Shown here one piece after another: positions 2,500 through 59,588 of a DNA stretch of 64,000 nucleotides (positions are counted from its first letter, which is position 1; the number at the start of each line of letters is the position of its first letter). This DNA is from Caulobacter sp. Root1455 (lineage in GTDB: Bacteria; Pseudomonadota; Alphaproteobacteria; Caulobacterales; Caulobacteraceae): contig NZ_LMFQ01000004.1 in the NCBI RefSeq assembly GCF_001426905.1, forward strand, positions 1-64,000, read 5' to 3'. Both the position numbers and the translations under genes were made by a program. A model generated the notes under the pieces. It saw only the letters and a program-made list of their open reading frames with translations. It searched no databases and was not told the origin of the DNA.

Positions 2500-2527
2500 T
2501 AAATAGGCTTTGGCGGGCCAAAGTCAA
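2500..2527 (-). promoter_or_regulatory. sigma-70-like promoter of the helicase
   Basis: On the minus strand TTGACT (complement of 2522-2527) is followed after 16 bases by TATTTA (complement of 2500-2505), a good housekeeping promoter in this GC-rich context. The -35 hexamer overlaps the stop codon of the upstream glycosylase gene. The helicase can therefore be transcribed independently of it. Confidence 0.5.
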
Positions 2528-5266: not shown

Positions 5267-5322
5267 TCCCGCGCCTCTTCCCTTTGAGCTCTTCTCTTTG
5301 GAAGAGTCCTGACGCACCCACC

Positions 5323-5359
5323 CCTAAAAGAAAATCCCCGCCGGACGGAGCCGGCGGGG
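5323..5359 (-). terminator. terminator/attenuator between MalA-like receptor and halogenase
   Basis: CCCCGCCGG (5336-5344) pairs with CCGGCGGGG (5351-5359). On the minus strand the hairpin is followed by AUUUUCUUUU, so it is a good intrinsic terminator just downstream of the receptor stop codon. Read-through would be needed for cotranscription of the halogenase. Confidence 0.75.
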
Positions 5360-5381
5360 AGGTCGCAGGGGAGATGTCTGC

Positions 5382-8141: not shown

Positions 8142-8434
8142 CTGATGCTCCCTCCCAATCGGTTCTCGCGGTTCCGCCGCGATGATCCAAGCTTCGTTGT
8201 GAAAATTACTGCAAATAAACACATTCGATTGCAACTGGAAAAATGGACAAAATGTCATGTGTGGCTTTTTGGTCGAGGTCGTCGCGCCGCATTTGCCGAA
8301 ATACGGGAGAAATTCTCGCTTTTGGAGTGATGAGAGGTCGATTGACAGGGTTGCGTGGTTTCTGCAAAAGATTGCAAACAATGGATCGGCGCTTTACCGA
8401 CCGATCCGCGTGAAGAGGGAAGGGGGCTAGAGGC
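8142..8434. promoter_or_regulatory. divergent promoter region malA / alpha-amylase
   Basis: This AT-rich 293-base gap lies between the divergently transcribed receptor and amylase. It holds several TTGCA/TGCAA half-sites, including TGCAA-N14-TTGCA near 8209-8232 and the compact TGCAA-N4-TTGCA at 8363-8376. These are probably operators for the LacI-type regulator encoded at 14666-15679. No reading frame here is convincing. Confidence 0.5.
8362..8380. promoter_or_regulatory. candidate MalI operator at malA/amylase
   Basis: CTGCAAAAGATTGCAAAC-type site containing a perfect TGCAA-N4-TTGCA palindrome (8363-8376). A related element (CTGCAAA...TTG...CAAAT) lies beside the regulator gene at 15709-15727. 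Sharing between the two control regions of one locus is the main support. Confidence 0.4.
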
Positions 8435-10294: not shown

Positions 10295-11916
10295 CGGTCG
10301 AGACCCTTTCAAAGCCGTCTACCGATCTGGCCCACGACCGCGACTGGTGGCGCGGCGCGGTGATCTACCAAGTCTATCCGCGCAGCTTCGCCGACACCAA
10401 CGGCGACGGCGTGGGCGACCTGCCGGGCGTCACCGCGCACCTGGAGCACGTCGCCTCGCTGGGCGTGGACGCCATCTGGCTGTCGCCGTTCTTCACCTCG
10501 CCGATGAAGGACTTCGGCTACGACGTTTCGAACTACGAGGACGTGGATCCCATCTTCGGGACCCTGGCCGACTTCGACCGGCTGATCGAGAAGGCCCACG
10601 CCCTGGGCCTGAAGGTGATCATCGACCAGGTGTTCTCGCACACCTCCGACGAGCACCCCTGGTTCAAGGCCAGCCGCCAGGACCGCACCAACCCCAAGGC
10701 CGACTGGTACGTCTGGGCCGACGCCAAGCCGGACGGCTCGCCGCCCAGCAACTGGCAGTCGGTGTTCGGCGGTCCGTCCTGGACCTGGGACGCGCGCCGT
10801 CGTCAGTACTATCTGCACAACTTCCTGTCGGCCCAGCCCGACCTCAACGTCCACAGCCCGCAGGTGCAGGACGCCCTGGTCGCCACGGCGCGATTCTGGC
10901 TGGACCGCGGGGTCGACGGCTTCCGCTTCGACGCGATCAATTTCGCGATGCACGACAAGGCCCTGACCGACAATCCGCCGATCCTGAACGGCGAGGGCAA
11001 GCGCACCCGGCCGTTCGACTTCCAGCACCACCTGTACAACCAGTCGCACGACGACATCCCGGCCTTCCTGACGCGGCTGCGCCAGCTGGGCGAGTCGTAC
11101 GGCGGCCGGTTCATGGTCGCCGAGGTCGGGGGCGAGCGGGCCGACAGCGAGATGAAGCTGTACACCCAGGGCCCCGACCGCCTGCACAGCGCCTACGGCT
11201 TCCTCTACCTCTATGCCGACACCCTGGCTGCGGACCTGATCCGGCAGGGCGCGGCCATGTGGCCGGGCGGGGAAGGGCAGGGCTGGCCGTCCTGGACGTT
11301 CTCGAACCATGACGCGCCGAGGGCGGTGTCGCGCTGGGCCCGGGGACGCGATCCCAAGGCCTTCGCCGAAATGTCGCTGCTGCTGCTGGTGTCCTTGCGC
11401 GGCAATGTCTTCATCTACCAGGGCGAGGAACTGGGCCTGCCCCAGGCCGAGGTGCCCTACGACCGGCTGCGCGATCCCGAGGCGATCGCCAACTGGCCCG
11501 AGACCCTGGGCCGCGACGGCGCCCGCACGCCGATGCCCTGGGTGGCCGTGGCCGCCCACACCGGCTTCTCCAAGGTCGAGCCCTGGCTGCCGATCGACCC
11601 TTCGCACATCGACCTGGCCGTCGACCGCCAGGAGCGCGACGGCGATTCGACCCTGAACGTGACCCGCCGCGTCGTCGCCCTGCGCCGCCAGCTGCCGGGC
11701 CTGCGGACGGGCGGCATGACCCTGGTCGACGCCCCCGAGCCGCTGCTGGTCTTCCTGCGCGGCGAGGGCGCGGATCAGGTGCTGTGCGCCTTCAACCTGG
11801 GTTTCGAAACGACCGCCTGGGACCTGCCGGCCGGCTGGCGGATCGTCGACAGCGTCAACCTGGCCGGCGAGGGCGCTCTGCCGCCGATGGCCGGGCTGGT
11901 GGCGCGGAAGGCCTGA
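10291..11916 (+). CDS. alpha-glucosidase (GH13, oligo-1,6/maltase type)
   Basis: This 541-residue cytoplasmic-looking GH13 alpha-glucosidase hydrolyses terminal alpha-glucosidic bonds of maltose and short maltodextrins to glucose. The N-terminal WWRGAVIYQVYPRSFADTNGDGVGDLPG is diagnostic of the oligo-1,6-glucosidase/alpha-glucosidase group. DGFRFDA (about 209-215), VAEVGGE (about 275-281) and SNHDAPR (about 339-345) supply the catalytic triad. There is no signal peptide. GTG 10291 is the start, with GGAGG eight bases upstream, and it overlaps the amylase stop codon by four bases. It probably acts after MalY-type transport across the inner membrane. A 26-base perfect palindrome follows ten bases after the stop. 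Confidence 0.9.
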   Translation: MTVETLSKPSTDLAHDRDWWRGAVIYQVYPRSFADTNGDGVGDLPGVTAHLEHVASLGVDAIWLSPFFTSPMKDFGYDVSNYEDVDPIFGTLADFDRLIEKAHALGLKVIIDQVFSHTSDEHPWFKASRQDRTNPKADWYVWADAKPDGSPPSNWQSVFGGPSWTWDARRRQYYLHNFLSAQPDLNVHSPQVQDALVATARFWLDRGVDGFRFDAINFAMHDKALTDNPPILNGEGKRTRPFDFQHHLYNQSHDDIPAFLTRLRQLGESYGGRFMVAEVGGERADSEMKLYTQGPDRLHSAYGFLYLYADTLAADLIRQGAAMWPGGEGQGWPSWTFSNHDAPRAVSRWARGRDPKAFAEMSLLLLVSLRGNVFIYQGEELGLPQAEVPYDRLRDPEAIANWPETLGRDGARTPMPWVAVAAHTGFSKVEPWLPIDPSHIDLAVDRQERDGDSTLNVTRRVVALRRQLPGLRTGGMTLVDAPEPLLVFLRGEGADQVLCAFNLGFETTAWDLPAGWRIVDSVNLAGEGALPPMAGLVARKA

Positions 11917-14665: not shown

Positions 14666-15679
14666 CTAGCCCCCGCAGGACTCGCGGATGATCAGGTCGG
14701 TCGGCACGCGTTCCGAGCGGCTGGCGCCCTGGCCGCTGGCGTCCAGCAGCTTGGACACCATCAGCCGCCCGGCCTTGGCGGTGTCCTGCGAGATGGTGCT
14801 GAGCGCCGGGCGCGAATAGCGGGCGAACGGCACGTCGTCATAGCCGATCACCGAGACGTCGCGCGGTGTCGACAGGCCCGCGTGCTGCAGGGCGCGGATG
14901 GCCCCCAGGGCGATCAGGTCGGAGGCGGCGACCACGCCGTCGAACTTCACCCCGCGCTGGATCAGCGAGTCGACGCTGGCCTCGGCCGACTCGACCTCGA
15001 AATGGGCCGGCACGATCAGTTCCGGATCGACGCCCAGGCCGAACTGCTCGACGGCGTCCAGATAGCCGCGGTGGCGCTGCATGGCCTCGGGGGCCTCGGT
15101 GTCGCCCAGGAAGACGATGCGCTTGCGGCCCAGGCGGGCCAGATGCAGCGTCGCGCGCTTGGCGCCCAGCGGATTGTCCGAGCCCACCGAGCAATAGGCC
15201 TGGTCGGGCAGCTGCGCCCCCCAGACCACGAAGCGGCCCTCCGTCTCGGCCAGGCGGTTGAAGGCGGTGTGCAGCCAGCTCTGGCCCAGGAAGATCACCC
15301 CGTCCGCGCGGCTGGTGGTCATGGCCACCGACAGGTCCTCGAAGCTGGTCGGGGCCACGTGGCTGATCACCAGGTCGCATCCCCGTTCACGCGCCGCCTC
15401 GCCGACCCCGGCCAGGAGCTCGAGGAAGAACGGGTCCGACAGCCGGCCCTCGCGGCCCTGGGGCCGAGGCACGACGATGGCGATCGTGCCCTCGGCGCCG
15501 ATCGGGCCGGCGGGCATGTAGCGGCGGAACGGATAGTCCATCTCGCGCGCCAGCTTCCAGATCAGCTGCTTGGTGCGCGTGTTGACCGCCGGACTGTCGT
15601 TCAGCGCCCGCGAGGCCGTGGAGATCGACACCCCGGCCAGCTTGGCTAGGTCTTCAAGCCGCGTCGCGCCCTTGGTCAC
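14666..15679 (-). CDS. malI: LacI-family transcriptional regulator, MalI-like
   Basis: This is a LacI/GalR-type repressor (337 aa). The N-terminal helix-turn-helix reads TRLEDLAKLAGVSISTASRALND (about 6-28). A hinge and a periplasmic-binding-protein-like effector domain follow, with LLAGVGEAARERGCDLVIS, AIRALQHAGLSTPRDVSVIGYDDVPFARY and a C-terminal RESCGG. The start is GTG 15679 with GGACAGG upstream. It is divergent from the MalY-like transporter and sits where C. crescentus has malI. It probably represses malA/amylase and malY/glucoamylase, releasing them in the presence of maltodextrin. Confidence 0.85.
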   Translation of the reverse strand: MTKGATRLEDLAKLAGVSISTASRALNDSPAVNTRTKQLIWKLAREMDYPFRRYMPAGPIGAEGTIAIVVPRPQGREGRLSDPFFLELLAGVGEAARERGCDLVISHVAPTSFEDLSVAMTTSRADGVIFLGQSWLHTAFNRLAETEGRFVVWGAQLPDQAYCSVGSDNPLGAKRATLHLARLGRKRIVFLGDTEAPEAMQRHRGYLDAVEQFGLGVDPELIVPAHFEVESAEASVDSLIQRGVKFDGVVAASDLIALGAIRALQHAGLSTPRDVSVIGYDDVPFARYSRPALSTISQDTAKAGRLMVSKLLDASGQGASRSERVPTDLIIRESCGG

Positions 15680-16039: not shown

Positions 16040-17602
16040 ATGGCGACCAAGGCCCGGCTGAATTTCTTCCAGATCTGGAACATGTGCTTCGGGTTCTTCG
16101 GGATCCAGATCGGCTTCGGCCTGCAGAACGCCAACACCTCGCGAATCTTCCAGAGCCTCGGCGTCGAGGTCAACCAGCTGGCCATCCTGTGGATCGCCGC
16201 GCCGGCCACCGGCCTGCTGGTGCAGCCGATCATCGGCTATCTCAGCGACAAGACCTGGGGGCGTCTGGGCCGGCGGCGTCCGTACTTCTTCTGGGGCGCG
16301 ATCCTGACCAGCGCCGCCCTGCTGGTCATGCCCAACGCCCCCGTGCTGTGGATCGCAGCGGCCGCCCTGTGGGTGATGGACGCCTCGATCAACATCACCA
16401 TGGAGCCGTTCCGCGCCTTCGTCGGCGACAACCTGCCCGATGAGCAACGCGCCTCGGGCTACGCCATGCAGAGCTTCTTCATCGGCACGGGCGCGGTCCT
16501 GGCCTCGGCCCTGCCGTGGATGCTGACCCGCTGGTTCGGCATCAGCAACGCGGTGGAGGGCGGCGGCGTGCCGCTGTCCGTGCACATCGCTTTCTACGTC
16601 GGCGCGGCGGGCGTGCTGTTGGCGGTGCTGTGGACGGTGTTCACCACCCGTGAATACAGCCCCGACCAGATGGCCGCTTTCGAGGCCGCCGAGCGGGCGC
16701 GGAAGGGCGAGGCGCCGTCCATGGCGGCCGACACGCCCACCCGCGCCGTGCGGGCCTACATGGTCGGCGGTGTCGTCTGGACCCTGGCGGGCGTCGTTCT
16801 GGCCGTCGCGATCTTCGCCACGCGGCTGGAGAAGGAGGTCTATGTCCTGGCCGCCATGCTCGGGGCGTTCGGCCTGGCCCAGATCGCCGCCGGCCTGCTG
16901 CGGCGGGGCGGGAAGACCGCCAATGGCTTCTCCGAGGTGGTCGAGGATCTGTTCCGCATGCCCGACACCATGAAACAGCTGGCGGTGGTGCAGTTCTTCT
17001 CGTGGTTCGGCCTGTTCGCCCTGTGGATCTACACCACCCCGGCCGTCACCGCCTTCCACTACCATGCCACGGACACCGCCTCGCGGGCCTATAACGACGG
17101 CGCCGACTGGGTGGGGGTGCTGTTCGCCCTCTATAACGGCGTGGCGGCGTTGGCGGCCCTGGTGATCCCGCTGATCGCCCGCGCCGTCGGCCGCAAGGCC
17201 AGCCACGCTCTGTGTCTGGGCCTGGGCGGTCTGGGCCTGGCGGCGTTCCCCCTGATCCGCGACCCGGTGCTGCTGTGGATCCCGATGATCGGCGTGGGCT
17301 TTGCCTGGTCGTCGATCCTGTCGGCCCCGTACTCGATCCTGTCGGGCGCGGTGCCGGGCCCGAAGATGGGCGTCTATATGGGCATCTTCAATTTCTTCAT
17401 CGTCATCCCGCAGCTGCTGGCCGCGACCATCCTGGGCGTGCTGCTCAAGACGTTCTTCGACGGTCAGGCGATCTGGGCCTTGATCCTGGGCGGCGGTTCG
17501 ATGCTGGCCGCGGCCGCCTGCGTGTTCCTGGTCCGCGACGTGGGCGAGCCCAGGGCGCTGGCCGCCGCGGCTCCGTCTCCCGAAGCACTCTCAAAAGCTT
17601 GA
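16040..17602 (+). CDS. malY: MFS sugar transporter, MalY-like
   Basis: This 520-residue inner-membrane transporter is of the GPH/SUT-like branch of the major facilitator superfamily, probably a proton symporter for maltose and short maltodextrins. About twelve hydrophobic segments are visible. The loop motif LSDKTWGRLGRRRPYFFWGA (about 73-92) after the second helix is characteristic of the sugar-symporter group, and a soluble linker near 225-245 separates the halves. The start is ATG 16040, preceded by AGGGGGAGC. Divergent from malI and 41 bases upstream of the exported glucoamylase, it matches malY of C. crescentus, which has no maltose ABC transporter in this locus. Confidence 0.85.
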   Translation: MATKARLNFFQIWNMCFGFFGIQIGFGLQNANTSRIFQSLGVEVNQLAILWIAAPATGLLVQPIIGYLSDKTWGRLGRRRPYFFWGAILTSAALLVMPNAPVLWIAAAALWVMDASINITMEPFRAFVGDNLPDEQRASGYAMQSFFIGTGAVLASALPWMLTRWFGISNAVEGGGVPLSVHIAFYVGAAGVLLAVLWTVFTTREYSPDQMAAFEAAERARKGEAPSMAADTPTRAVRAYMVGGVVWTLAGVVLAVAIFATRLEKEVYVLAAMLGAFGLAQIAAGLLRRGGKTANGFSEVVEDLFRMPDTMKQLAVVQFFSWFGLFALWIYTTPAVTAFHYHATDTASRAYNDGADWVGVLFALYNGVAALAALVIPLIARAVGRKASHALCLGLGGLGLAAFPLIRDPVLLWIPMIGVGFAWSSILSAPYSILSGAVPGPKMGVYMGIFNFFIVIPQLLAATILGVLLKTFFDGQAIWALILGGGSMLAAAACVFLVRDVGEPRALAAAAPSPEALSKA

Positions 17603-17643
17603 TCCGCGTCCTTGTCGACGTCGCCATTTCACGAGGTAGTTCC

Positions 17644-19974
17644 ATGCGTTGCCTGAAGATACTCGCCTTGGCCTCGACGGCCGCGACCGCTCTGGGAAGC
17701 GCCGCCTGCGCCGAGACCCCGACCACCTGGGCCTATGCCGCCAAGACCGGAGTCGGCGCGTCCTACGAGGCCTATGTCGACGGCGCCTACAAGGACGGCG
17801 GCCCGACCGGCGCGGTGTCGAAGGTGTGGTTCTCGATCGCCGACGGGACCCTGACCGAGACCATGTACGGCCTGATCCACGAGGCCCAGATCAAGCAGCT
17901 TCGGGTGGCGGTGAAGACCTCGACCGGCCTGGCCGTCGAGGGCGCCGACACCACCTCCAAGACCGAATACCTGCACGTCGACGCCGCCGGCCGGCCGCTG
18001 TCGCCGGCCTACAAGGTGACGACCACCGACAAGCAGGGCCGGTTCGAGATCGAGAAGCGGATCTTCACCGACCCGGACCGCAACGCCCTGGTCGTGCGGG
18101 TCACGGTCCGCGCGCTGAAGGGGCCGGTGACGCCGTTCCTGGTGCTGGAGCCGCACATGGCCAACACCGGCGGCGGCGACACGGGCGCGGCGACCGCCGC
18201 CGCCCTGACCGCTTCGGAGGGCAAGGCGTTCCTGAGCCTGAAGGGCGGCAAGCCGTTCGTGAAGGCCGTCGCCGCGCCGCTCGGCGCCGACGCCCTCGCG
18301 GCCGTGAAGCCGGCGGCCCTGACCGGCGGCGCCTCGGCCACGGGCGCGATCGTGCTGACCGCCCAGCTGCCGGAGCAGGCCTCGGGCGAGGCGACCTACG
18401 ACTTCGCCATCGGCTTCGGCGGCGACGCCCAGGCCGCCGACCAGGCCGCGTCCGCCACACTGAAGACCGGTTATGACGAGGTGCTGGCCCGCTACAACGG
18501 CGAGGGCGACCGCGTCGGCTGGGAGGACTATCTGGCCTCGCTGACCGAGCTGCCGCGCCTGCGCGAGGTCTCGGAGGACGGCGGCAAGCTGGTCCAGGCC
18601 AGCGCCCTGATGCTGAAGGTCCAGGAGGACCGCACCTATGCCGGCGCCCTGATCGCCTCGCTGTCCAATCCGTGGGGCGACACCGTCGACGCCTCCAAGC
18701 CCTCGACCGGCTACAAGGCCGTCTGGCCGCGCGACTTCTACCAGTGCGCCATGGCCCTGGCCGCCCTGGGCGACAAGCAGACGCCGCTGGCGGCGTTCCA
18801 CTACCTGCCCCAGGTGCAGGTCAAGGCCGGCATGGCGGGCAACACCGGCGTCGGCGGCTGGTTCCTGCAGAAGACCTGGGTGGACGGCACCACCGAATGG
18901 GTCGGCGTCCAGCTGGACCAGACCGCCATGCCGATCATGCTGGGCTGGAAGCTGTGGAAGCTGGGCTGGCTGCCCGAGGCGGACCTGAAGGCCTATTACG
19001 GCAAGATGATCAAGCCGGCGGCCGACTTCCTGGTCGACGGCGGCAAGGTCGGGGTCGGCTGGAACCACGAGACCATCAAGCCGCCGTTCACCCAGCAGGA
19101 GCGCTGGGAAGAGCAGGGCGGCTATTCGCCCTCGACCACCGCGGCGACCATCACCGGCCTGGTGGTGGCGGGCGACATCGCCGAACTGGCCGGCGACACG
19201 GCCGGCGCGGCCCGCTATCGCGCCACGGCCGACGCCTATTCGGCCAAGGTCGAGGCGCGGATGGTCACCACCAAGGGGCCGTTCGGCGACGGGACCTATT
19301 ATGTGCGCCTGAACCAGAACGAAGACCCCAACGACCACGCCCCGATCGGCGCCGCCAACGGCCAGATCGCCCCGCCCAAGGACCAGGTGGTCGACGGCGG
19401 CTTCCTGGAGCTGGTCCGCTACGGCGTGCGGCGGGCCGACGATCCGGCCATCGTCGGCAGCCTGCCCGAGCTGGACGACACCAGCCGGGCCGACCTCTAC
19501 CGCGTGCGCTACGACTTCACCTTCCCGGGCGTGACGGGCGAGTTTCCGGGCTGGCGGCGCTATGACGTCGACGGCTATGGCGAGGACGCCAAGACCGGCG
19601 CCAACTACGGCGTGGGCGGCCAGATGAGCCCGGGCCAGCGCGGCCGGGTCTGGCCGATCTTCACCGGCGAGCGCGGCCACTACGCGCTGGCGGCGGCCAG
19701 CCAGCACGGCAAGCCCGACGCCGCCGCGATCCAGGAGATCCGCGACCGCTACGTCAAGGCCATGGAGCTGTTCGCCAATGAGGGCCTGCTGATCTCCGAG
19801 CAGGTCTGGGACGGCGTCGGGGCGAACCCGCGCGGCTATCCGCGCGGCGAGGGCACGGATTCGGCCACGCCCCTGGCCTGGTCGCACGCCGAATACGTCA
19901 AGCTGCTGCGCTCGGTCAGCGACGGCCAGGTGTGGGATCGCTACGCGCCGGTGGCGGCGCGCTACGCGAAGTAG
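17644..19974 (+). CDS. exported glucan 1,4-alpha-glucosidase (glucoamylase, GH15)
   Basis: This 776-aa glucoamylase releases glucose from the non-reducing ends of maltodextrins. A signal peptide (MRCLKILALASTAATALGSAACA, cleavage near 23) points to the periplasm or cell surface. An N-terminal beta domain (glucodextranase-N-like, about 25-290) is followed by the (alpha/alpha)6 catalytic domain. That domain carries GYKAVWPRDFYQCAMAL, ERWEEQGGYSPST (acid Glu about 490) and a C-terminal LAWSHAEYVKLLRS (base Glu about 750). The start is ATG 17644, 41 bases after malY with GAGG upstream, so the two are probably cotranscribed under MalI. With the amylase and glucosidase it completes maltodextrin breakdown. 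Confidence 0.9.
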   Translation: MRCLKILALASTAATALGSAACAETPTTWAYAAKTGVGASYEAYVDGAYKDGGPTGAVSKVWFSIADGTLTETMYGLIHEAQIKQLRVAVKTSTGLAVEGADTTSKTEYLHVDAAGRPLSPAYKVTTTDKQGRFEIEKRIFTDPDRNALVVRVTVRALKGPVTPFLVLEPHMANTGGGDTGAATAAALTASEGKAFLSLKGGKPFVKAVAAPLGADALAAVKPAALTGGASATGAIVLTAQLPEQASGEATYDFAIGFGGDAQAADQAASATLKTGYDEVLARYNGEGDRVGWEDYLASLTELPRLREVSEDGGKLVQASALMLKVQEDRTYAGALIASLSNPWGDTVDASKPSTGYKAVWPRDFYQCAMALAALGDKQTPLAAFHYLPQVQVKAGMAGNTGVGGWFLQKTWVDGTTEWVGVQLDQTAMPIMLGWKLWKLGWLPEADLKAYYGKMIKPAADFLVDGGKVGVGWNHETIKPPFTQQERWEEQGGYSPSTTAATITGLVVAGDIAELAGDTAGAARYRATADAYSAKVEARMVTTKGPFGDGTYYVRLNQNEDPNDHAPIGAANGQIAPPKDQVVDGGFLELVRYGVRRADDPAIVGSLPELDDTSRADLYRVRYDFTFPGVTGEFPGWRRYDVDGYGEDAKTGANYGVGGQMSPGQRGRVWPIFTGERGHYALAAASQHGKPDAAAIQEIRDRYVKAMELFANEGLLISEQVWDGVGANPRGYPRGEGTDSATPLAWSHAEYVKLLRSVSDGQVWDRYAPVAARYAK

Positions 19975-39529: not shown

Positions 39530-40744
39530 TTAGGGCGTGATCCTGACCATGACCACGCCGTGCGACGGCGTCGTCGCGGCGAACCGACCCTTCATCCTGC
39601 CCAGCCCCTTCTTGGCCCACAGGTCGCGGACCTCGGCCTTGAGGCCGGCGGGATAGCCGAGCTCGGTCCAGTCGACGGACACCGTCCGCGCCTCGGCGCC
39701 GCGGTTGAACAGGATCACCGCGCGACCGCCGTCCGCGAGTTGTTTGGACCAGACCTCCAGGTCGCCGTCGTCGCGGATGCGGCGGCCTTGGACGCCGAGC
39801 GCGTCCTGGTTCACCGCGATGACCTCGGTGTTCAGGAGGATGGCGCGCGTCGCTTCATCCATGTCGGCGATGTCGTTGCCGGCGATCAGCGGGGCGGCCA
39901 TCAGCGCCCACAGGCTGAAGTGCGACTGGTACTCGGTGTTGGTCAGGCCGCCGTTGCCGACCTCCAGCATGTCCGGATCGTTCCAGTGGCCCGGGCCGGC
40001 GAAGGGGTAGAGCGGCTCGTTGAGGTCGACGATGCGCAGGACGCCCAGGGCGTAGTCGTACTTGCCGTCCCACTTGTCGGTGATGTCGCCGGTCGTGCGC
40101 CACAGGTTGCCGACGGCGCCGGCCCACAGCCACGGCTTGGCCGTGCCCCACTCGCACATCGAAAAGACGATGTCGCGGCCGGCTTCCCGCAGGGCGTCGG
40201 CCATCAGGGTGTAGGCCTCCTCGGCGTTGCGCGTGCCGGTCGAGCACCAGTCGTACTTGAGATAGTCCACGCCCCAGTCAGCATAGGTCTTGGCGTCCTG
40301 GAACTCGTGCCCCTGGCTGCCCGGCCGGCCGCCGCAGGTCAGCCGGCCAGCGTCCGAATAGATGCCGAACTTCAGGCCCTTGGCATGGACGTAGTCCGAC
40401 AGCGCCTTGATGCCGCTGGGAAAGCGCTTGGCGTCATAGGTGATGAAGCCGCCGGCGTCGCGCGGGCCGTGCCAGCAGTCGTCGATCACGATGTACTCGT
40501 AGCCGGCCGCCTTCATGCCGTTCGAAGCCATGGCGTCGGCCATGCGGCGCACGGTCTGTTCGTCGATGTTGCAGGCGAATTTGTTCCAGCTGTTCCAGCC
40601 CATCGGCGGCTTCTGCGCCAGGCCGTTGGCGACCCGCGGCGGCGGGTCCTTGTCGGCGGCGACGGCGACCTGGGCGCCGGTCAGGGCCAGAGCCAGCGCG
40701 CCGACGATCAGGCAGGCGGCGGGACGCTTGAACAGGGTGGGCAT
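39530..40744 (-). CDS. exported alpha-galactosidase (GH27)
   Basis: This 404-residue GH27 alpha-galactosidase removes terminal alpha-galactose from oligosaccharides such as raffinose-type sugars or galactomannan. A signal peptide (MPTLFKRPAACLIVGALALALTGAQVAVAA) places it in the periplasm. PPMGWNSWNKFACNIDE and YEYIVIDDCW are the family start. The nucleophile is D165 in YLKYDWC and the acid/base is D220 in WRTTGDITDKW. GPGHWNDPDML and a C-terminal beta domain follow. The start is ATG 40744, 38 bases downstream of the halogenase on the same strand, so it is the third gene of a receptor-halogenase-hydrolase operon. Confidence 0.93.
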   Translation of the reverse strand: MPTLFKRPAACLIVGALALALTGAQVAVAADKDPPPRVANGLAQKPPMGWNSWNKFACNIDEQTVRRMADAMASNGMKAAGYEYIVIDDCWHGPRDAGGFITYDAKRFPSGIKALSDYVHAKGLKFGIYSDAGRLTCGGRPGSQGHEFQDAKTYADWGVDYLKYDWCSTGTRNAEEAYTLMADALREAGRDIVFSMCEWGTAKPWLWAGAVGNLWRTTGDITDKWDGKYDYALGVLRIVDLNEPLYPFAGPGHWNDPDMLEVGNGGLTNTEYQSHFSLWALMAAPLIAGNDIADMDEATRAILLNTEVIAVNQDALGVQGRRIRDDGDLEVWSKQLADGGRAVILFNRGAEARTVSVDWTELGYPAGLKAEVRDLWAKKGLGRMKGRFAATTPSHGVVMVRITP

Positions 40745-40782: not shown

Positions 40783-42315
40783 TCACGCCGTGACGGGCTT
40801 GTCGGCGTAGCGCTCGAGCACGCGCCCGTGGCGCGGCATCTGGTCGACGACCCGGCGGCAGACCGCGCGCATATGTTCCAGGGTCGCGTACAGGGCGCGC
40901 TCGTCCATCAGGTCGGCCAGCGGGTCGTAGCCTTCCGGCTCCTGGCCCTGACCCATCATGATCGCCAGCCAGTTCGGCTCCTGGAAGATGGTCTGGTCCG
41001 GGAAGATGGTCAGGCCCCGGGTGCGGAACAGTTCGATCTTTTCCCGCAGCGAGTCCGGGATGGGCATGTGGCGCAGGCGGTCCCAGAACGGCTCTCCGAC
41101 GCGTCCGTTGGCGTGGTAGTGATAGACGAGGAAATCGCGGATCTGCTCCATCTCCTGGCCCATGATCCGGTTGTAGAGATCCGCGGCCGCCGGATCGTTC
41201 CTGGCCTGGGGGAAGCTGGCCGCCAGCTTGATCAGGCCGTGCTGGATCAGGTGGATGGAGGTGGATTCCAGGGGCTCCAGGAAGCCGCTCGCCAGGCCGA
41301 TGGCCGCGCAGTTCTTCACGCGCGACTGCTTGCGCCGTCCGGTCTTGAACCTCAGGAAGCGCGGCTCGGCCTCGGGCCTGTTGTCGGGATGCTCCCGCGC
41401 CAGGTTGGCCAGCAGGACGTCGGCGGCCTCGTCGTCGCCGATGTGGTCGCTGCAATAGACGTAGCCGTTGCCCGTGCGGTGTCGCAGCGGGATGCGCCAC
41501 TGCCAGCCGGCGGTCAGGGCGGTGGCGCGGGTGTAGGGGACGGGGTCCTCGTACCGGGTCGAGGGCGCGGCCACCGCGCGGTCGGCCGGCAGCAGCGCCG
41601 ACCAGTCGTCATGCCCGACCCCCAGCGCGCCCTCGATCAGCAGCGCCCTGAAGCCCGAGCAGTCGATGAAGAAATCGCCCTCCAGCGCCTGGCCGTCGTC
41701 GAGCAGCAGCGAGGCGATCGTGCCGTCCAGAGGGTCGAGATTGACCGCGCGAATGGTCCGCTCCAGCCGCCTGACCCCGCGCCCCTCGGCGATGCGCCGC
41801 AAGAGCTTGGCGTAGAGCGAGGCGTCGAAATGGTAGGCGTGGGCCATGGTCGTGCGCGGATCGCGCGGATCGTCCACGCGCCAATCGAAGCGCCCGCCCT
41901 TGGCGGCCAGGGCGCTCAGCGAGAACTCGGACAGATCGGGCCGGTAGCCGAGCTTGCGCGCGCGAAGCCAATAGGCGTGGAACGACACGCCGTTGATCGG
42001 TCCGCCATAGGACCCGAACGGGTGGAGGTAGCGGTGGTCGGGGTCGCGCCAGCCGACGAACTCGATGCCCAGCTTGAAGCTGCCTTGGGTGGCCGACAGC
42101 ATCTCGGCCTCGTCGACGCCCGCCAGTTCGTTGAAGAAGGTGATCGGCGGGATCGTCGCTTCGCCGACGCCGATCGTGCCGATCTCGGCGGACTCCACCA
42201 GGGTGATCCGCATCTGATGCGGCGCGAACAGCTTGGAGAAGAAGGCCGCGGCCATCCATCCGGCGGTGCCGCCGCCGGCGATCACCAGATGCGAGATTTT
42301 CCCAGGGTTTCCCAT
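40783..42315 (-). CDS. tryptophan-halogenase-family flavoprotein (copy 2)
   Basis: This second flavin-dependent halogenase homologue (510 aa) is clearly related to but distinct from copy 1. It has GGGTAGW (14-20), GVGEATIP (49-56), catalytic K81 in SFKLGIEF, WxWxIP (271-276), and E350 in EPLESTS. All residues needed for halogenation are present. ATG 42315 is the start. It lies 80 bases downstream of a sugar-type receptor and 38 bases upstream of the GH27 gene. The receptor-then-halogenase order matches the maltodextrin locus. The substrate is unknown; free tryptophan is not implied by the context. Confidence 0.85.
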   Translation of the reverse strand: MGNPGKISHLVIAGGGTAGWMAAAFFSKLFAPHQMRITLVESAEIGTIGVGEATIPPITFFNELAGVDEAEMLSATQGSFKLGIEFVGWRDPDHRYLHPFGSYGGPINGVSFHAYWLRARKLGYRPDLSEFSLSALAAKGGRFDWRVDDPRDPRTTMAHAYHFDASLYAKLLRRIAEGRGVRRLERTIRAVNLDPLDGTIASLLLDDGQALEGDFFIDCSGFRALLIEGALGVGHDDWSALLPADRAVAAPSTRYEDPVPYTRATALTAGWQWRIPLRHRTGNGYVYCSDHIGDDEAADVLLANLAREHPDNRPEAEPRFLRFKTGRRKQSRVKNCAAIGLASGFLEPLESTSIHLIQHGLIKLAASFPQARNDPAAADLYNRIMGQEMEQIRDFLVYHYHANGRVGEPFWDRLRHMPIPDSLREKIELFRTRGLTIFPDQTIFQEPNWLAIMMGQGQEPEGYDPLADLMDERALYATLEHMRAVCRRVVDQMPRHGRVLERYADKPVTA

Positions 42316-42343
42316 GCCGCCTTCGCGTGTCGTTTGCGTCGAA

Positions 42344-42368
42344 CCCCGCCGGCGGCGCGCCGGCGGGG
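42344..42368. repeat. hairpin between receptor and halogenase 2
   Basis: CCCCGCCGGCG (42344-42354) pairs with CGCCGGCGGGG (42358-42368), an 11-bp stem with a 3-base loop. There is no clear U-run, so it is more likely an attenuator or mRNA-stability element than a strong terminator. Its outer nine bases equal the stem at 5336-5359 in the other receptor-halogenase gap. Confidence 0.55.
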
Positions 42369-42395
42369 TCTTCGGTCAAGAAGATCAGCTTGGAC

Positions 42396-45300
42396 CTAGA
42401 ATGTCCCGCGGACGATGAACGAGAAGCGGCGGTCGCTCACCGTCCAGCTGTGCTTGCGGACCAGGGCTTCGGAGAAGTTCCCCTGCGTGCCGAGGAACCA
42501 GGAGTCCCGCTGATCCATCTCCAGCACGGTCTTGGAGTTGAGCAGGTTGACCGCCTGGAAGCCCACCTTCACCTGGGGGGTGAGCGAATACAGAACCGAG
42601 CCGTCCAACTGGCCGTAGTCCTCGGCATAGACCGGCACCATCAGGTTCGAGGCCGAGGCGCTCATCAGGTAACGCGACCGCCAATTGTAGGCCAGGCGGG
42701 CGTCGACGCCGTATTTGCTGTACAGAAGCATCGCGTTGTAAGTGTAGCGAGACAACAGCTCCAGCGGCAGGTCCAGCTTCGAAGCATTGATCTGGGCGGC
42801 GTCGGTGGTGCTGCTGGTGGCGTTCTGGGTTCCCTTGCTGTCCAGTATGGTCGCATTGAATTCCGTGCCCAGACCGCTGAAGGCACCCGGCAGGAAGTCG
42901 TAGAATTGCTGGTACTGGAATTCCAAGCCGTAGATTTCGCCGTGACCCATGTTCTGGGGCACGGTTCCGACCGCCTGGACGGACTCGCCGTTGTCCTTGG
43001 TGATGGTCATCAAGGTCTGGCTGGACTGGATGTAGTCGTAGACATCCTTCTTGAAGACGCCCGTCGCCAGCATGCCGCCATGGAAGTACCACTCGCCCGA
43101 CAGGTCGAACGAATTGGCGCGCATCGGCTTGAGGTTCGGATTGCCTGAGTAGAAACCAAAGGCGACGTCGGTGTGGTACTGCACGGCCTGGCCGCCGGCC
43201 GCCGCCGTGTCCAGTTGGGCCTGGGTATAGGGCTGGTTCGTTGTCGGGTTGATGATGTTGTCGGCCGTGGTGGCGTTGCGCGACTGCAAGGTGGCCGACA
43301 TCGAAACCGATGGGTCCAGCTGGAAGAAGTCGGGCCGGACGATGTTCTTCGACGCGGCGAACCGGAAGAAGAGGTTGGGCCGGGCCTTCAGGCGCAGGTT
43401 CAGGCTGGGCAGGACGTCGGTGTAGTCGCTGCCGCCGACCGAGGCGAAGGGTTGGCCGTCGGCGAAGTCGATCTTGGCCTGGGCGGCGGGCGAGGCGAAG
43501 CGCTTCTGGCCCGGGTCGATGAAGCCGACCGTTCCGTAGCCCTGGCCGTCCACCTTGGACTTGACGACCCGCAGGCCGAAATTACCGTCCCAGCTCATCG
43601 CCTCGCCGCCCCAGGTCATGGGCAGGTTGTCGCCGCCGAAACGGACCTTGGCGTAGATCGCGCCGGTCTTTTCCCATTGGCGATTGACGCCGCGGCCGCC
43701 GGAATTGGCGAAGCTGGTGTTCACGTCGCCCAGGGGCCGCCAGTAGTTGATGCTGCCGGTCGGCGCGGCCCAGATTGGCATGTAGCTCATCATGGTGCCT
43801 TGCTTGAACGGGCTGTAGGTCCCGCCGGCGGGTGACCAGGACGGGATCGCGCCGTTCGGGCCGCCCGGCGGATAATAGCCGTACTCGCCGTCGTTATAGG
43901 CCGGCCCGCCGCCGGGGACCGGGCCGTTCCACACCACCTGGTCCAGATAGGTCGCCAGCGCCGCGGGGCTGCGCGCCAGGTCGAACGCCGGCATGATCAG
44001 CCCGGGGACGGAGGCGTCGCCCTTGAAGAAGTCGTCGAAGGCCACCGTGTCCTGGTGCTGGGTGTATTTGTCGGCCGTGGCGGTGACCCGCGTGGCCCAC
44101 GGCGCCGAGATGAGCGCCCAGTTGTACCCGGCGTCGCGCGAGGTGGCGTCGCGCGAGGTGGCGCGGACGCCCAGCTTGATGTCCTTGATCAGCGAGTCGT
44201 CGTCGAAGTCGTAAGTCACGTCGAACTTGCCCGCATATTCCCGGGCGTCGTTGTCGTCGATGTGGTCCATCGCGGCGTAGAGGTTGAAGATCGACGGGTT
44301 GCCGGTGGCGTTCGTCATGGTGATCTTCGGCAGGTCGCCGGTCAGGTCCAGGCCGAACCCGCCGGGCTGGGTGACGGTGTTGTAGACCGTCACGTCGGTG
44401 CCCTCGCGATGCGAATAGACGTACTGCAGGTCGCCGGTCACGACGAACCGGTCGTTCCTCCAGTTGAAGCCCGCCGAAATGTCGTTGGTGTTGTCCTCGA
44501 CCGTTCCGTAGCGGGTGCCCAGGTTCAGCAGGAACGAGTTGGCCACGCCGTTGCCGCCGCCGCCGCCGTCGACGAGCTGGCCGCTCAGGAAGTTGCCGTC
44601 CGCGTCGTACTTGAACGTCGTGCCGGCCGCCGGCCCCACCACGAACGACTGGTTGTTGGTCGACGAGCAGCAGGCCGAGGTCTGGGCGAAGCGGTCCTGG
44701 AAGGTCTGCTTGGCTTCGGTGCGGAAGAAGGTGGTGTAGAATTCGAGGTTGTCGTTGGGCCGGTACTGGAAGGCGGCGTAATAGCCCTCGCGCTTCCGGT
44801 CCTGGAGGTTGTTGCGGTACTGGATGCCGACCGGCACGAAGACGCGGCTCAGGGGCTGGCCCGCGATCGAATTGTCGCCGTTGAAGTTGAACGTGGCCCC
44901 GCCGTCATAGGACGATTGGACCCCGACCCCGTGGGCGTCGTACGGGTCGACGGCGATGGTGTTCACCGCGGTGTTCAGCTTCGAGCTCGACAGGCTGAGC
45001 AGCACCCCGAATTCGCCGCCGTCGGGGGTGTCGAAGCGGTCGCTGTAGAGAACGCTGCCTGACGGCGTGCCGTCCTTGCGCAGGTCGCCCCACGTGTAGT
45101 CGGCCGAGAAGGCCAGTTGGCGGTTCTTCTGGTCGAACGGCATGCGCGTGCGCAGGTTCACCGTGCCGCCCAGCCCGCCTTCGATGATGTCCGCCGACGG
45201 GTTCTTGTAGACGTCCACGCCGGCGAACAGCTCGGGCGTCACGTCTTCCCACGAGATGGCCCGGCCGCCGCGCGCCGAGAAGATGTCCCGGCCGTTGAGT

Positions 45301-45686
45301 TCGGAGCGAACCCAGGTCAGGCCGCGCACCTGGATGCCGGAACCCTCGGCGTTGAGGCGATCGACGTCCCGGGGCTGGGTGGTCCGACCGATGGTCACGC
45401 CGGGGACGCGCTGCAGCGCCTCGGTGATCGAGCGATCGGGCAGGCCGCCGATGTCCACGGCGGTGATCGAATCGACGATCTGTTCGGAATTCTTCTTCAG
45501 CTCCTGCGCCGTCTGGATGGCCTTGCGCTGGCCCACGACGACGACTTCGGAGACTTCCCCGCCGGAGGAGCCGCTCTTCCCCACCTCGCTCGACTGGGCG
45601 TGCGCCGTCGTGACAAGGATGCCCGAGGCCCAGGCCGCCGCGGCCGTGGACGCCAGCAACATATTCTTTTTATTGAGTAATTTCAT
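42396..45686 (-). CDS. TonB-dependent receptor, sugar type, halogenase-linked
   Basis: This large outer-membrane receptor (1096 aa) has a signal peptide (about 8-31, ending TTAHAQ), a TonB box SEVVVVGQRKAIQTAQELKKNSEQIVDSITAVDIGGLPDRSITEALQRVPGV, GIQVRGLTWVRSELNGRDIF, and a C-terminal FSFIVRGTF. The plug is of the long polysaccharide/oligosaccharide type. ATG 45686 with GGGAGAGGAAAC upstream is better than the start 12 codons earlier. It heads an operon with the halogenase and the GH27 alpha-galactosidase, so an alpha-galactosylated oligosaccharide is the likely ligand (inference). Confidence 0.87.
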   Translation of the reverse strand: MKLLNKKNMLLASTAAAAWASGILVTTAHAQSSEVGKSGSSGGEVSEVVVVGQRKAIQTAQELKKNSEQIVDSITAVDIGGLPDRSITEALQRVPGVTIGRTTQPRDVDRLNAEGSGIQVRGLTWVRSELNGRDIFSARGGRAISWEDVTPELFAGVDVYKNPSADIIEGGLGGTVNLRTRMPFDQKNRQLAFSADYTWGDLRKDGTPSGSVLYSDRFDTPDGGEFGVLLSLSSSKLNTAVNTIAVDPYDAHGVGVQSSYDGGATFNFNGDNSIAGQPLSRVFVPVGIQYRNNLQDRKREGYYAAFQYRPNDNLEFYTTFFRTEAKQTFQDRFAQTSACCSSTNNQSFVVGPAAGTTFKYDADGNFLSGQLVDGGGGGNGVANSFLLNLGTRYGTVEDNTNDISAGFNWRNDRFVVTGDLQYVYSHREGTDVTVYNTVTQPGGFGLDLTGDLPKITMTNATGNPSIFNLYAAMDHIDDNDAREYAGKFDVTYDFDDDSLIKDIKLGVRATSRDATSRDAGYNWALISAPWATRVTATADKYTQHQDTVAFDDFFKGDASVPGLIMPAFDLARSPAALATYLDQVVWNGPVPGGGPAYNDGEYGYYPPGGPNGAIPSWSPAGGTYSPFKQGTMMSYMPIWAAPTGSINYWRPLGDVNTSFANSGGRGVNRQWEKTGAIYAKVRFGGDNLPMTWGGEAMSWDGNFGLRVVKSKVDGQGYGTVGFIDPGQKRFASPAAQAKIDFADGQPFASVGGSDYTDVLPSLNLRLKARPNLFFRFAASKNIVRPDFFQLDPSVSMSATLQSRNATTADNIINPTTNQPYTQAQLDTAAAGGQAVQYHTDVAFGFYSGNPNLKPMRANSFDLSGEWYFHGGMLATGVFKKDVYDYIQSSQTLMTITKDNGESVQAVGTVPQNMGHGEIYGLEFQYQQFYDFLPGAFSGLGTEFNATILDSKGTQNATSSTTDAAQINASKLDLPLELLSRYTYNAMLLYSKYGVDARLAYNWRSRYLMSASASNLMVPVYAEDYGQLDGSVLYSLTPQVKVGFQAVNLLNSKTVLEMDQRDSWFLGTQGNFSEALVRKHSWTVSDRRFSFIVRGTF

Positions 45687-46019
45687 GTTTCCTCTCCCAA
45701 AGTTCAGCACGCCTTGGCCCATTCGGGCTCTCTGCGTTCACCTAGCGCGCTGAAGTCGACCTTCAGGTCGTGGCCCCGACGTCACCGGCATTTTTTAATT
45801 AAGTTGTTTTTATTTAACTGGGTCACATTTATCGTACAAGAGGCAATCCGTACCGATGGTTTGCGAATTTGGCCCTGGTCCCGGGCTCGAACGGATTCTG
45901 GCCGCCGCGGCGTCGCGAGGGGGCGGAAGCGCGCCCAGCCAGCCAGCCGGATCGGCCGAGCCGATCTTCAACCCGCTTCTCCGGGTTGCGCCGGATATCC
46001 CCCGCGAACGCCCCCATGA
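45687..46019. promoter_or_regulatory. divergent promoter region, AT-rich
   Basis: This 333-base gap lies between the divergent receptor and the unknown 363-aa gene. A run of TTTTTTAATTAAGTTG and TTATTTAACT (about 45793-45821) is strikingly AT-rich for this genome and marks the receptor promoter. No gene is supported here, and I see no clear operator palindrome. Confidence 0.45.
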
Positions 46020-56371: not shown

Positions 56372-56717
56372 AGGTCGTCGTCCGGCCGCCTGGTTCCCGG
56401 CGGCGCCTCGGCCTGTTCCGCATTTCACGGTTGGAGCGAAGCAAAGGTGTTGCATGTCCGCAACGCTCAGGCGCCCCTGCGACCGTTTAAATGAAAAATA
56501 CTACAAATGCCGTTCCCATAGCTGCGCGCTTGTGTCGATATGCGTGACAGAAGTTCAGAGGCGCCCAGCGCCCGGGGTGAGGAAATACGTCCGCGCACGT
56601 CGTGCGCCGCCTGACGCCGGCCGACCGCTTTTGGATCGTTGACCGCCGCCTTGCTCCGTTCGAGGGCAGGCGCCCGAGTTGCCATGCGGCAAGGCCGCGA
56701 AGGGGAGGGGAAAGCCC
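56372..56717. promoter_or_regulatory. promoter region of the pectin-locus receptor
   Basis: This 346-base gap has no supported gene. It has an AT-rich promoter-like stretch near 56487-56512 containing the motif shared with the kduI promoter, and a strong purine-rich ribosome site (AGGGGAGGGG, 56701-56710) for the receptor. Confidence 0.5.
56498..56510 (-). promoter_or_regulatory. shared motif upstream of pectin-locus receptor
   Basis: On the minus strand this reads GCATTTGTAGTAT, 11 of 13 bases identical to the motif at 51945-51957. It lies in the AT-rich core of the promoter region about 210 bases upstream of the receptor start. Confidence 0.35.
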
Positions 56718-59588
56718 ATGAAGAAGAAGCTTCTGCTATCGACGGTGCTGGCCGTGGGGGTCGGCGGCGCCGGTTCGGTTTGGGCTCAGGCGACCCAGGC
56801 GCCGCCGTCCCAAGCGGGCGACACCGAGCAAGTGAGCGAGGTGGTCGTCACCGGGTTTCGCTCATCGCTGGAGAAGGCCCTGAACCTCAAGAAGGACGCC
56901 ATCGCCGTCCGAGACTCGATCGTCGCCGAAGACATCGGCAAGTTCCCCGAGGCCAACGTCGCCGAGGCCCTGCAGCGCATCCCCGGGATCTACATGACCC
57001 GCGATGGCGCTTCCAACGAAGGGCAACGCATCGCCATCCGGGGCTTGGGTCCCGAATATACGGTGACCACCCTCAACGGCGCTCCGGTCCATACGACCTC
57101 GTCGACCAACGTCGGCGGATCTTCGCGCGACTTCAACTATGATGTCTTTGCTTCCGAGCTGTTCGGCCGCGTGGACTTTTACAAGACGCCCCTGGCTGAA
57201 CTTGAAGAGGGCGGCGTCGGCGGCGTGGTCGATCTTCAAACGCCAAGGCCGTTCGACGGCGCCGGCGGCCAGATTTTGCGGTTCAACGCGGTGGCCTCCT
57301 ACAACACGGCGTCCAAGAAGATGGACCCGAATGTGTTTGGGCTGTTCTCGAAGACCTGGAACAATTGGGGCTTCCTGATCGGTGTCGCGCACTCGACCAG
57401 CGTCAACATGAAGTCGGGTTTCGAGGCGACGGGCGGCTACAACAGCAATTATCTGGCTGGCCACCCTGTTCCCGTCGACACCAAGACGCCGCCGACCATG
57501 CGCAATGGCCCCTTCAACATGGCGTTCGACTGGGCCGATCCGCGAGCGGCGGGCATGCTCGGCAATCGGACGGCGATCGACAACGCCTATCTTTCGCGTT
57601 TCTACCGGTACTACGGCGCTGAAAATACGCGCGATCGCGACGGACTGGTGTCCTCACTCCAGTACAAGAACGACAAGCTGGATGTGAGCTTCGATACGCT
57701 GCTGTCGCATCTCCAGGACTCGCGCGACGAATTCACCTTCGGCCTGCCGATCCGTAACTCGGCCACCACCAATGTGGCCGCCCGTCCGGGCACCGCGGGT
57801 CACAACGGCCTCGTGCCGATCAACGTCAGCATCGTCGACGGCAACGTGCTTCAGGGAACGTTCGGCAACACGTCCTATCTGGGCGAGAGCTACTACTACA
57901 ACGCCGAGACCAAGTTTGGGTACGGCGGCCTCAACGCCAAGTACCAGGTCAACGACTCGCTGACGCTGACGGGTCAGCTCGCGGCTTCGGACAGCCGGGC
58001 CTTCTATGACAACAAGCGCATCGTCTCGAACATCTACGGCGTGACCTCCACCCTCGACTGGGGTGACGACCGGGTCTATCCGGGGCTTTCGGCGCCGGGG
58101 GTCGACTTCACGAACCCGGCCAATTTCGAAGATTTCAGCACGGCCGTGGACTGGAATCGCGAAGTGGACCAAGAGCGTGTCGCCAAGCTGGTGGCCGACT
58201 GGGACTACGGGCTCGGCGACTGGAAGGGTCACCTGAAGGCTGGCCTGTCATACGTCGATACGACCAAGCAAAAGACCAAGCGTAACGGAACCGCGATCGT
58301 TCAGGCTCGCCTGGCCGCGATCGGCGCCGCGGGGCTACGCGCGTCGATGCTGCATTCGGTGCCGCTTGATAATCTCGTCATCGGCGACAACTACCCGCAG
58401 CAATGGGCCACCTTCTCGCGCGGCTACGTGATCAACGCGCTTGACCCGCTCGGCGCCGCCATGGCCTCGCCGGTCGATCTCTCCAGCAGCTTCACCGCCG
58501 ACGAACAGGTCAGCACCTTCTTTGTCCAGTCGGACTTCAGCGGCCAGGTTCTTGATCGCGAACTGCGTATCAATGCCGGCGTGCGTTATTCGCAAACCGA
58601 CATGACCATCGACAACTTCAAGAAGACGGGGACCGGCGGCGCCTATCAGCCCAATACCGAAGAAAGCAGCTACGACAACACCCTGCCTTCGGTCAGCTTC
58701 GCGTACGACGTCATCCCCGATGTGGTCTGGCGCGGTTCCTGGGGCAAGACCATCACGCGAGCCTCGTTGTCGCGGATCGCTGCCCAGACGGTCATTCCCA
58801 ATATCTACAACACCTATGCGACCTCGGGTAACCCGGAGCTGAAGCCGGAGATCTCGACGAACTGGGACACCACGATTGAGTGGTACTTCGGGCGCGGCGG
58901 CATTCTGAGCGCCGGTTACTTCAAGAAGAAGCTGGAGGACACGACGATCGCTCAGCGCTCGGTCGTGCCATTCTCCAGTCTCGGTCTTCCCGACGAGTCG
59001 CTGGCGATCATTTGGCACACCCAGAACGGGCATGTTGATCCCAACCTCCCCATCGACGTCGACACCTTCATCAATGGCGGCACGGTGAGTCTCGACGGTC
59101 TCGAGTTCGCCTATCAGCAGTCCTTTGATTTCCTGCCCGCGCCGTGGGACGGTTTTGGCGCGCTCGCCAGCTATACGAAGGTCAACTCGGAGAGCGCCGA
59201 CCTGAGGTATCGCAAGCAGGACGGGTCGATCGACATGGTCAATCGCATCCCGCGATATTCGTACAGCTTGACCGGCTACTACGAAAAGGGCCCGCTGGGC
59301 GCGCGACTGACCTACAACTACAAGGCTCGGAACATCATCGACACCAACCCGGATGGTTCTGATTTGGAGCGCTGGCATGCTGGAGCCGGCTATCTCGACG
59401 GCAACGTCAGCTACAAAATCAACGACGAGCTTGAACTACGTCTCGATGTCCTGAACATCACCAATACGTTGGGCTTCGATTACTTCGAAGACGTCGCCGG
59501 TCGCTACGGCGACGGCAGGAAGACCCGCCTCGATTACGCCAAGTATGACGGCCGGACGATCAAGTTCGGCGTGCGCGGCAAGTTCTAG
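56718..59588 (+). CDS. TonB-dependent receptor, polysaccharide type (pectin locus)
   Basis: This 956-aa outer-membrane receptor has a signal peptide (MKKKLLLSTVLAVGVGGAGSVWAQ), a TonB box VSEVVVTGFRSSLEKALNLKK, DSIVAEDIGKFPEANVAEALQRIPG, RIAIRGLGPEYTVTTLNGAPVHT and a C-terminal KFGVRGKF. The plug is of the long oligosaccharide type. The preceding GH105/KduI genes and following beta-galactosidase suggest import of rhamnogalacturonan or galactan oligosaccharides. Its wobble positions are noticeably less GC-rich than those of its neighbours, hinting at a different history. A strong terminator follows. Confidence 0.88.
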   Translation: MKKKLLLSTVLAVGVGGAGSVWAQATQAPPSQAGDTEQVSEVVVTGFRSSLEKALNLKKDAIAVRDSIVAEDIGKFPEANVAEALQRIPGIYMTRDGASNEGQRIAIRGLGPEYTVTTLNGAPVHTTSSTNVGGSSRDFNYDVFASELFGRVDFYKTPLAELEEGGVGGVVDLQTPRPFDGAGGQILRFNAVASYNTASKKMDPNVFGLFSKTWNNWGFLIGVAHSTSVNMKSGFEATGGYNSNYLAGHPVPVDTKTPPTMRNGPFNMAFDWADPRAAGMLGNRTAIDNAYLSRFYRYYGAENTRDRDGLVSSLQYKNDKLDVSFDTLLSHLQDSRDEFTFGLPIRNSATTNVAARPGTAGHNGLVPINVSIVDGNVLQGTFGNTSYLGESYYYNAETKFGYGGLNAKYQVNDSLTLTGQLAASDSRAFYDNKRIVSNIYGVTSTLDWGDDRVYPGLSAPGVDFTNPANFEDFSTAVDWNREVDQERVAKLVADWDYGLGDWKGHLKAGLSYVDTTKQKTKRNGTAIVQARLAAIGAAGLRASMLHSVPLDNLVIGDNYPQQWATFSRGYVINALDPLGAAMASPVDLSSSFTADEQVSTFFVQSDFSGQVLDRELRINAGVRYSQTDMTIDNFKKTGTGGAYQPNTEESSYDNTLPSVSFAYDVIPDVVWRGSWGKTITRASLSRIAAQTVIPNIYNTYATSGNPELKPEISTNWDTTIEWYFGRGGILSAGYFKKKLEDTTIAQRSVVPFSSLGLPDESLAIIWHTQNGHVDPNLPIDVDTFINGGTVSLDGLEFAYQQSFDFLPAPWDGFGALASYTKVNSESADLRYRKQDGSIDMVNRIPRYSYSLTGYYEKGPLGARLTYNYKARNIIDTNPDGSDLERWHAGAGYLDGNVSYKINDELELRLDVLNITNTLGFDYFEDVAGRYGDGRKTRLDYAKYDGRTIKFGVRGKF

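Follow-up and report, generated by a model that had tools for sequence, protein, structure and literature searches.

Flavin-dependent halogenases of the BrvH/Xcc4156 clade (PDB 6frl and 6y1w) have been studied as catalysts for free indoles, and the accessible text of neither paper mentions 'TonB'. According to the same portions of these reports, the tested members are inactive on free tryptophan and their native substrate is not known, while in vitro bromination of indole-type screening substrates is documented for BrvH and the Xanthomonas halogenases (PMC5945002, PMC7336383). Halogenases are also dense in macroalgal Caulobacterales, in a report whose accessible text contains neither 'TonB' nor 'receptor' (PMC10919026), and the mutants with altered colony morphology that are listed for a Sphingomonas isolate, in the available part of the source, include one with a transposon insertion in a gene for a 'tryptophan halogenase' (PMC11340318). 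Here, we explored a 64,000-nucleotide stretch of the genome of Caulobacter sp. Root1455 (positions 1 to 64,000 of contig NZ_LMFQ01000004.1; hereafter, the window) and, in particular, a locus that we denote pair 2, in which a TonB-dependent receptor of the TIGR01782 type is followed by a halogenase of this clade. Our analysis reveals that pair 2 represents a module that is widespread, in which the gene for a BrvH-type halogenase comes after that for a predicted sugar-type TonB-dependent receptor. We propose, with a probability of roughly 0.35, that the halogenase is dedicated to its own receptor and modifies an aromatic residue of that receptor in the cytoplasm, before export.

The initial annotation of the window, made from the nucleotide sequence, had noted a second receptor-halogenase pair, and the pair is indeed there: receptor 2, halogenase 2 (a PF04820 protein) and a GH27 alpha-galactosidase are encoded consecutively on the minus strand, with 80 bp between receptor and halogenase and 38 bp between halogenase and GH27. 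The TIGR01782 model is matched over its whole length at 591 bits (receptor 2) and 569 bits, above the cut-off of 310, and an alternative start of receptor 2 is possible at 45662. In halogenase 2, PF04820 spans residues 10-471 (579 bits); the GxGxxG motif is present, and K81, the WxWxIP motif (WQWRIP, 271-276) and E350 are intact exactly as had been claimed. Across 20 aligned clade members, G14, G16, G19, K81, W271, W273, E350 and S351 are invariant, and R274, I275 and P276 nearly so. The long tryptophan-holding lid of PrnA, RebH and PyrH was not found in halogenase 2, the lid of which aligns without gaps to that of BrvH (residues 432-444, vs 440-467 in RebH, in the accessible text of PMC5945002). 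Closest solved relatives and fold are likewise consistent with the BrvH/Xcc4156 clade, so that, judged by its sequence, halogenase 2 is a member of that clade and not of the free-tryptophan type. No signal peptide is apparent in its sequence, and its sole NCBIfam match is the QhpG equivalog model NF049967, at 30.5 bits, below the cut-off of 240.

For the survey of related loci, we labeled halogenases with K, E and WxW.[IV]P class A, those with K, E and WxW only class B, and the rest degenerate; the labels are our own, and four lone 'degenerate' genes (L181, L182, L220 and L221) retain K and E. The lid is 22 residues long in 222 of 236 class A enzymes. The two occurrences of the pair counted initially are both real but an undercount: the genome contains 17 PF04820 genes (11 class A, 4 class B and 2 degenerate) in 11 clusters, and 8 of the 11 have a TIGR01782 receptor no more than 700 bp away, measured between the ends of profile matches. 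Given 21 such receptors over the cut-off (two rows being pieces of one), the binomial chance of this adjacency is about 7e-15, assuming one gene per 1,080 bp. Seven of the 8 class A clusters are that close to a receptor; the eighth is 2.0 kb away, with Cupin_8 and SapC genes in between (SapC assigned by Pfam, Cupin_8 by family clustering). One of the 3 class B clusters adjoins a receptor, forming the third pair of the contig, just outside the window (C4:97795-101994).

The same arrangement recurs well beyond this genome. Among 20 relatives searched, 16 contributed 81 clusters (strong listed matches, with PF04820 matches under ~45 bits left out); among the matches listed, a receptor is found within 700 bp of 50 of the 61 class A clusters, 41 of the 50 being behind it on the same strand; the same proximity applies to 5 of 14 class B clusters and to 2 of 6 that are mixed, degenerate or fragments. 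The truncated copies in G001, G003 and G008 were retrieved with their arrays and scored as degenerate or as fragments. A further 80 named loci, picked solely by similarity to halogenase 2, come from Caulobacter, Asticcacaulis, Nitrospirillum, Sphingomonas, Alteromonas and beta-proteobacterial bins. Their 88 class A entries comprise 64 within 700 bp of a receptor, 4 within 3.5 kb, 3 cut off upstream and 17 with none within 3.5 kb; all 3 class B entries and 6 of 7 others are within 700 bp. In a sample of the phylum, 52 of 398 genomes encode a class A-like halogenase, and a TIGR01782 receptor is present in 51 of these 52 vs 27 of the 346 without it (a cross-table tallied by eye at limits of 1e-120 and 1e-90, kinship being ignored). 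The BrvH gene itself was found in a genome of the same family (G243; 100% identity over the 492 residues searched), directly behind a TIGR01782-type receptor and ahead of a second halogenase; a second halogenase gene also adjoins BrvH in the available part of the original description (PMC5945002). The genome of Xcc4156 is not among the samples, in which its best match reaches 69% / 68%.

Receptor and halogenase appear to be inherited together. For this analysis, we took 99 clusters in which a full receptor adjoins, on the same strand, a first halogenase of class A or B, and built a tree for each of the two proteins. In 82 of 92 outside pairs, the nearest receptor and the nearest halogenase of our genome belong to the same pair, compared with a mean of 16.0 and a maximum of 31 in shuffles; for the named loci, the figure is 41 of 48 vs 11.4. 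The Mantel correlation reaches 0.62 (p 0.001) among the 40 named class A pairs and 0.505 (p 0.001) among the 46 pairs from this genome and its relatives; restricted to comparisons within genomes, it is 0.435 (p 0.002). Thus, the congruence of the two trees, which the initial annotation had put forward as a check, exceeds chance (the exception, the six class A pairs of this genome alone, is discussed below), and general adjacency together with congruent trees lends good support to its suggestion of a modular arrangement with a separate halogenase for every receptor. When linkage to a halogenase is mapped onto a tree of 201 receptors, it switches 12 times, against a shuffled mean of 56; the unlinked set consists of the receptors of this genome together with a selection from six relatives, drawn from the listed part. 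In 9 relatives of pair 2, the receptor is retained in 8; of the 7 among these in which GH27 is testable (one contig ends early), 3 have it next to the receptor, which favours the receptor, and not the sugar enzyme, as the partner of the halogenase. An apparent loss of GH27 in L209 was rejected and not counted, the gene call having split a gene that tblastn recovers as one whole match.

Pair 1 lies in a starch locus 35 kb away, as stated originally (Table 1). Its halogenase is 48.8% identical to that of pair 2 (500 columns) and its receptor 30.0% identical (874 columns); therefore, the two pairs are no recent duplication, in agreement with the first assessment. The proposed order of receptor, halogenase and exported hydrolase holds for pair 2, with GH27 in third place, but not for pair 1, where an AlkZ-like DNA glycosylase follows the halogenase; the amylases, LacI regulator, MFS transporter and GH15 gene lie on the opposite side of the pair. 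Of the components that define CUT loci (receptor, carbohydrate enzymes, inner-membrane transporter and regulator), pair 1 has all, and because only receptor and GH27 are seen at pair 2, the latter is at most a partial CUT locus. Divergent from receptor 2 is an open reading frame (ORF) of 363 aa (46020-47111, +) without a Pfam or NCBIfam match at 0.001. Elsewhere in the window, a divergent DyP-type peroxidase (49655-50992, -; DyP_N barely above the cut-off) neighbours a pyridine nucleotide-disulphide oxidoreductase and a Phenol_MetA_deg protein.

Table 1. Coordinates of the two pairs, their surroundings in the window, and degenerate halogenases of other loci
Feature	Position	Strand	Basis or remark
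TonB-dependent receptor 2, TIGR01782 type	42396..45722	-	ORF of 1108 aa; PF00593, PF07715, TIGR01782 591 bits; gene call
Flavin-dependent halogenase 2, class A (BrvH/Xcc4156 clade)	40783..42315	-	510 aa; PF04820 579 bits
GH27 alpha-galactosidase (Melibiase_2)	39530..40744	-	PF16499, PF17801; 6f4c and 1uas by sequence; apparent signal peptide from sequence
GC-rich hairpin between receptor 2 and halogenase 2	42342..42368	-	sequence; fold z -2.1; without clear T-run
TonB-dependent receptor 1, TIGR01782 type, starch locus	5382..8381	-	start probably internal, near 8105-8150
Flavin-dependent halogenase 1, class A	3767..5269	-	K80, W270xWxIP, E344; PDB 9luq, 6frl, 6y1w
AlkZ-like DNA glycosylase following halogenase 1 (in place of an exported sugar hydrolase)	2524..3729	-	PF06224
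Two alpha-amylase family genes, upstream of and divergent from receptor 1	8435..11916	+	PF00128 twice
PhyH-type gene (another 2-oxoglutarate oxygenase family), inside the starch locus	13955-14650	+	PF05721
LacI-type regulator, starch locus	14666..15679	-	PF00356, PF13377
MFS transporter, starch locus	16040..17602	+	PF07690
ORF with GH15 glucodextranase/glucoamylase	17212..19974	+	PF00723, PF09137; true start internal to ORF
Third TIGR01782 receptor of the window, without halogenase	56679..59588	+	profile matches
Degenerate second-place halogenase	L018:9347-10804	+	
Degenerate second-place halogenase	L020:12175-13653	-	
Further degenerate second-place halogenases	arrays L075, L087, L089, L095, L099 and others		

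An exported hydrolase as a fixed third member of the module was rejected, given that the families vary among the 69 downstream genes scanned. Among 128 clusters with an upstream receptor within 700 bp and a called downstream gene, a gene on the same strand follows within 400 bp in 71, and 34 of the 71 show a signal-like start. The 69 genes carry 64 Pfam families, including glycoside hydrolases, SapC and oxygenases. Halogenase-linked receptors are enriched for SapC and for two Fe/2-oxoglutarate oxygenase families, Cupin_8 and DUF6445, in a comparison that could favour the linked set, the partner profiles being derived from halogenase-centred loci. DUF6445 (PF20043; L020:10410-11132 (-) and L026:7205-7921 (+)) conserves HxD...H...R, and its structural model resembles protein prolyl and lysyl hydroxylases; it is probably an Fe/2-oxoglutarate oxygenase tied to receptor loci. 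Separately, class B halogenases with GWTWDIGL in place of WxWxIP occur without an adjoining receptor (L026:4039-7208 and L024:10087-11562), one pair of them being followed by DUF6445. In tandem arrays, the second place is occupied by degenerate halogenase homologues, mostly full length, which have lost the catalytic residues and which, in Sphingomonas, are under purifying selection (dN/dS 0.20).

What could a receptor need a halogenase for? A role in receptor maturation appears plausible on sequence evidence. A general flavin reductase would supply FADH2 to the halogenase, the hypohalite formed would reach the catalytic lysine, and a tryptophan or tyrosine of the unfolded receptor precursor would then be halogenated or hydroxylated, by analogy with QhpG, which hydroxylates QhpC, and MibH, which halogenates its lanthipeptide. 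The short lid predicted for these enzymes supports such a role, in that it is like that of BrvH, where the pocket stays open. The modified receptor might bind or pass glycans better, or might resist phages and bacteriocins, and the degenerate second halogenase of tandem arrays could serve as a non-catalytic docking partner. More speculatively, the loci might encode an oxidative maturation kit for receptors, consisting of the cognate halogenase, often a pseudo-halogenase and, at some loci, Cupin_8, DUF6445 and SapC, which would place halogen or hydroxyl marks on aromatic or other residues of the receptor before export and would represent the native job of the large BrvH-type clade.

Several observations weigh against receptor modification. 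A universal tryptophan was sought in 201 receptors and not found among the linked ones, although the loops align poorly and sites particular to single receptors are possible; tyrosine sites are not resolved in the alignment. Tryptophans conserved in at least 90% of sequences number none in the receptor-2 clade (n=87) and one in the receptor-1 clade (n=35); the clade of class B/SapC receptors (n=16) has four, but unlinked clades (n=3 and n=6) also have 5 and 6 such columns, and the best tryptophan columns are clade-bound (W frequency 0.54 in linked vs 0.11 in unlinked receptors). Class B enzymes often lack a receptor within 700 bp (present in 1 of 3 clusters in this genome and 5 of 14 in relatives, if in 3 of 3 at named loci). 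In L070 (10001-11533), a metagenome-assembled genome, the halogenase is kept while both the receptor and the GH27 that flank it in L065 are missing, possibly through a deletion or an assembly fault. BrvH weakly brominates free indole, according to the accessible text of PMC5945002, and, ranked by E-value, Foldseek matches the DUF6445 model best to the small-molecule oxygenases PolD and HygX. The Mantel test on the 6 class A pairs of this genome alone is not significant (rho 0.42, p 0.12), and linked genes yield congruent trees whatever the function or the cause of linkage. Finally, strong, terminator-like hairpins follow receptor genes in 77 of 98 gaps (z < -2), including that of pair 2 and the gap of pair 1, near 5270-5381; halogenase expression could thus be lower than, or separate from, that of the receptor, and the two genes may not be co-transcribed. 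A hairpin special to linked receptors was considered and rejected, with z < -2 in 70% of 66 unlinked vs 88% of 137 linked receptors.

Among the alternatives, the initial suggestion of ligand tailoring fares poorly as far as the sugar itself is concerned, because the pairing persists beside starch, alpha-galactoside and other sugar enzymes. The main rival is that the enzymes act on an aromatic small molecule, such as a phenolic or an indole, that enters through the receptor or along with plant or algal polymers, for detoxification or signalling. This is possible, if doubtful: the in vitro bromination of indole-type substrates and the halogenase retained without its receptor in L070 fit it, but aromatic cargo would hardly be expected at starch and alpha-galactoside loci, the 25 of 64 downstream Pfam families that were listed include none for secondary-metabolite biosynthesis, and in the available text of PMC5945002 indole turnover is low and the authors themselves doubt that indole is the native substrate. 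It is unlikely that the enzymes work in vivo as flavin monooxygenases that hydroxylate, rather than halogenate, a protein or metabolite. That the sole NCBIfam match of the halogenase is to QhpG, a peptidyl-tryptophan dihydroxylase, and that two Fe/2-oxoglutarate oxygenase families share some of the loci would agree with hydroxylation, yet the halogenase Lys, WxWxIP and Glu-Ser are retained, and halogenating activity is reported for BrvH and Xcc4156, relatives within the clade, in the accessible portions of the two papers.

The substrate could also be some other protein that the locus encodes and that is exported or resides in the envelope, for instance, SapC or a glycoside hydrolase, both of which recur; we consider this distinctly improbable, given that SapC occurs at few loci (15 genes in 15 loci), the hydrolase family changes from one locus to another, and the receptor alone is common to most class A loci. 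Least probable of all is a passive neighbour, a general enzyme merely carried in sugar islands. Congruent trees would arise from such linkage as well, but it would not be expected to yield immediate adjacency in Caulobacter, Nitrospirillum, Sphingomonas, Alteromonas and beta-proteobacteria, or the phylum-wide co-occurrence of receptor and halogenase described above. Modification of the cognate receptor before export is the reading that we prefer.

No description of the receptor-halogenase pairing was found among the matches listed in the openly licensed literature, most subscription journals being outside this scope; the protein families are familiar, but both the receptor-bound module and the role that is likely for it seem to be absent from the literature searched. 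The CUT loci of Xanthomonas and Caulobacter (PMC1790865) are similar in that a receptor lies beside sugar enzymes, with a LacI regulator and an MFS transporter also present at pair 1; they differ in that the accessible portions of the 2007 paper do not contain 'halogenase' or, in the main text, 'tryptophan'. The lanthipeptide tryptophan halogenase MibH (5uao; 30% identity) acts on a small ribosomally synthesized and post-translationally modified peptide, with no receptor involved. QhpG (PMC7876137) is an FAD enzyme with weak sequence similarity, whose protein substrate is modified while still in the cytoplasm, ahead of its export. However, the enzyme of the window scores far under the QhpG family cut-off, and QhpG hydroxylates and works with a radical S-adenosylmethionine enzyme, none of which was seen in the halogenase neighbourhoods. 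Compared with these systems, linking BrvH-type halogenases to individual receptors provides a concrete candidate substrate and, if true, would add a chemical step to the making of outer-membrane transporters, a form of receptor maturation that is new, and would assign a function to a large clade of enzymes.
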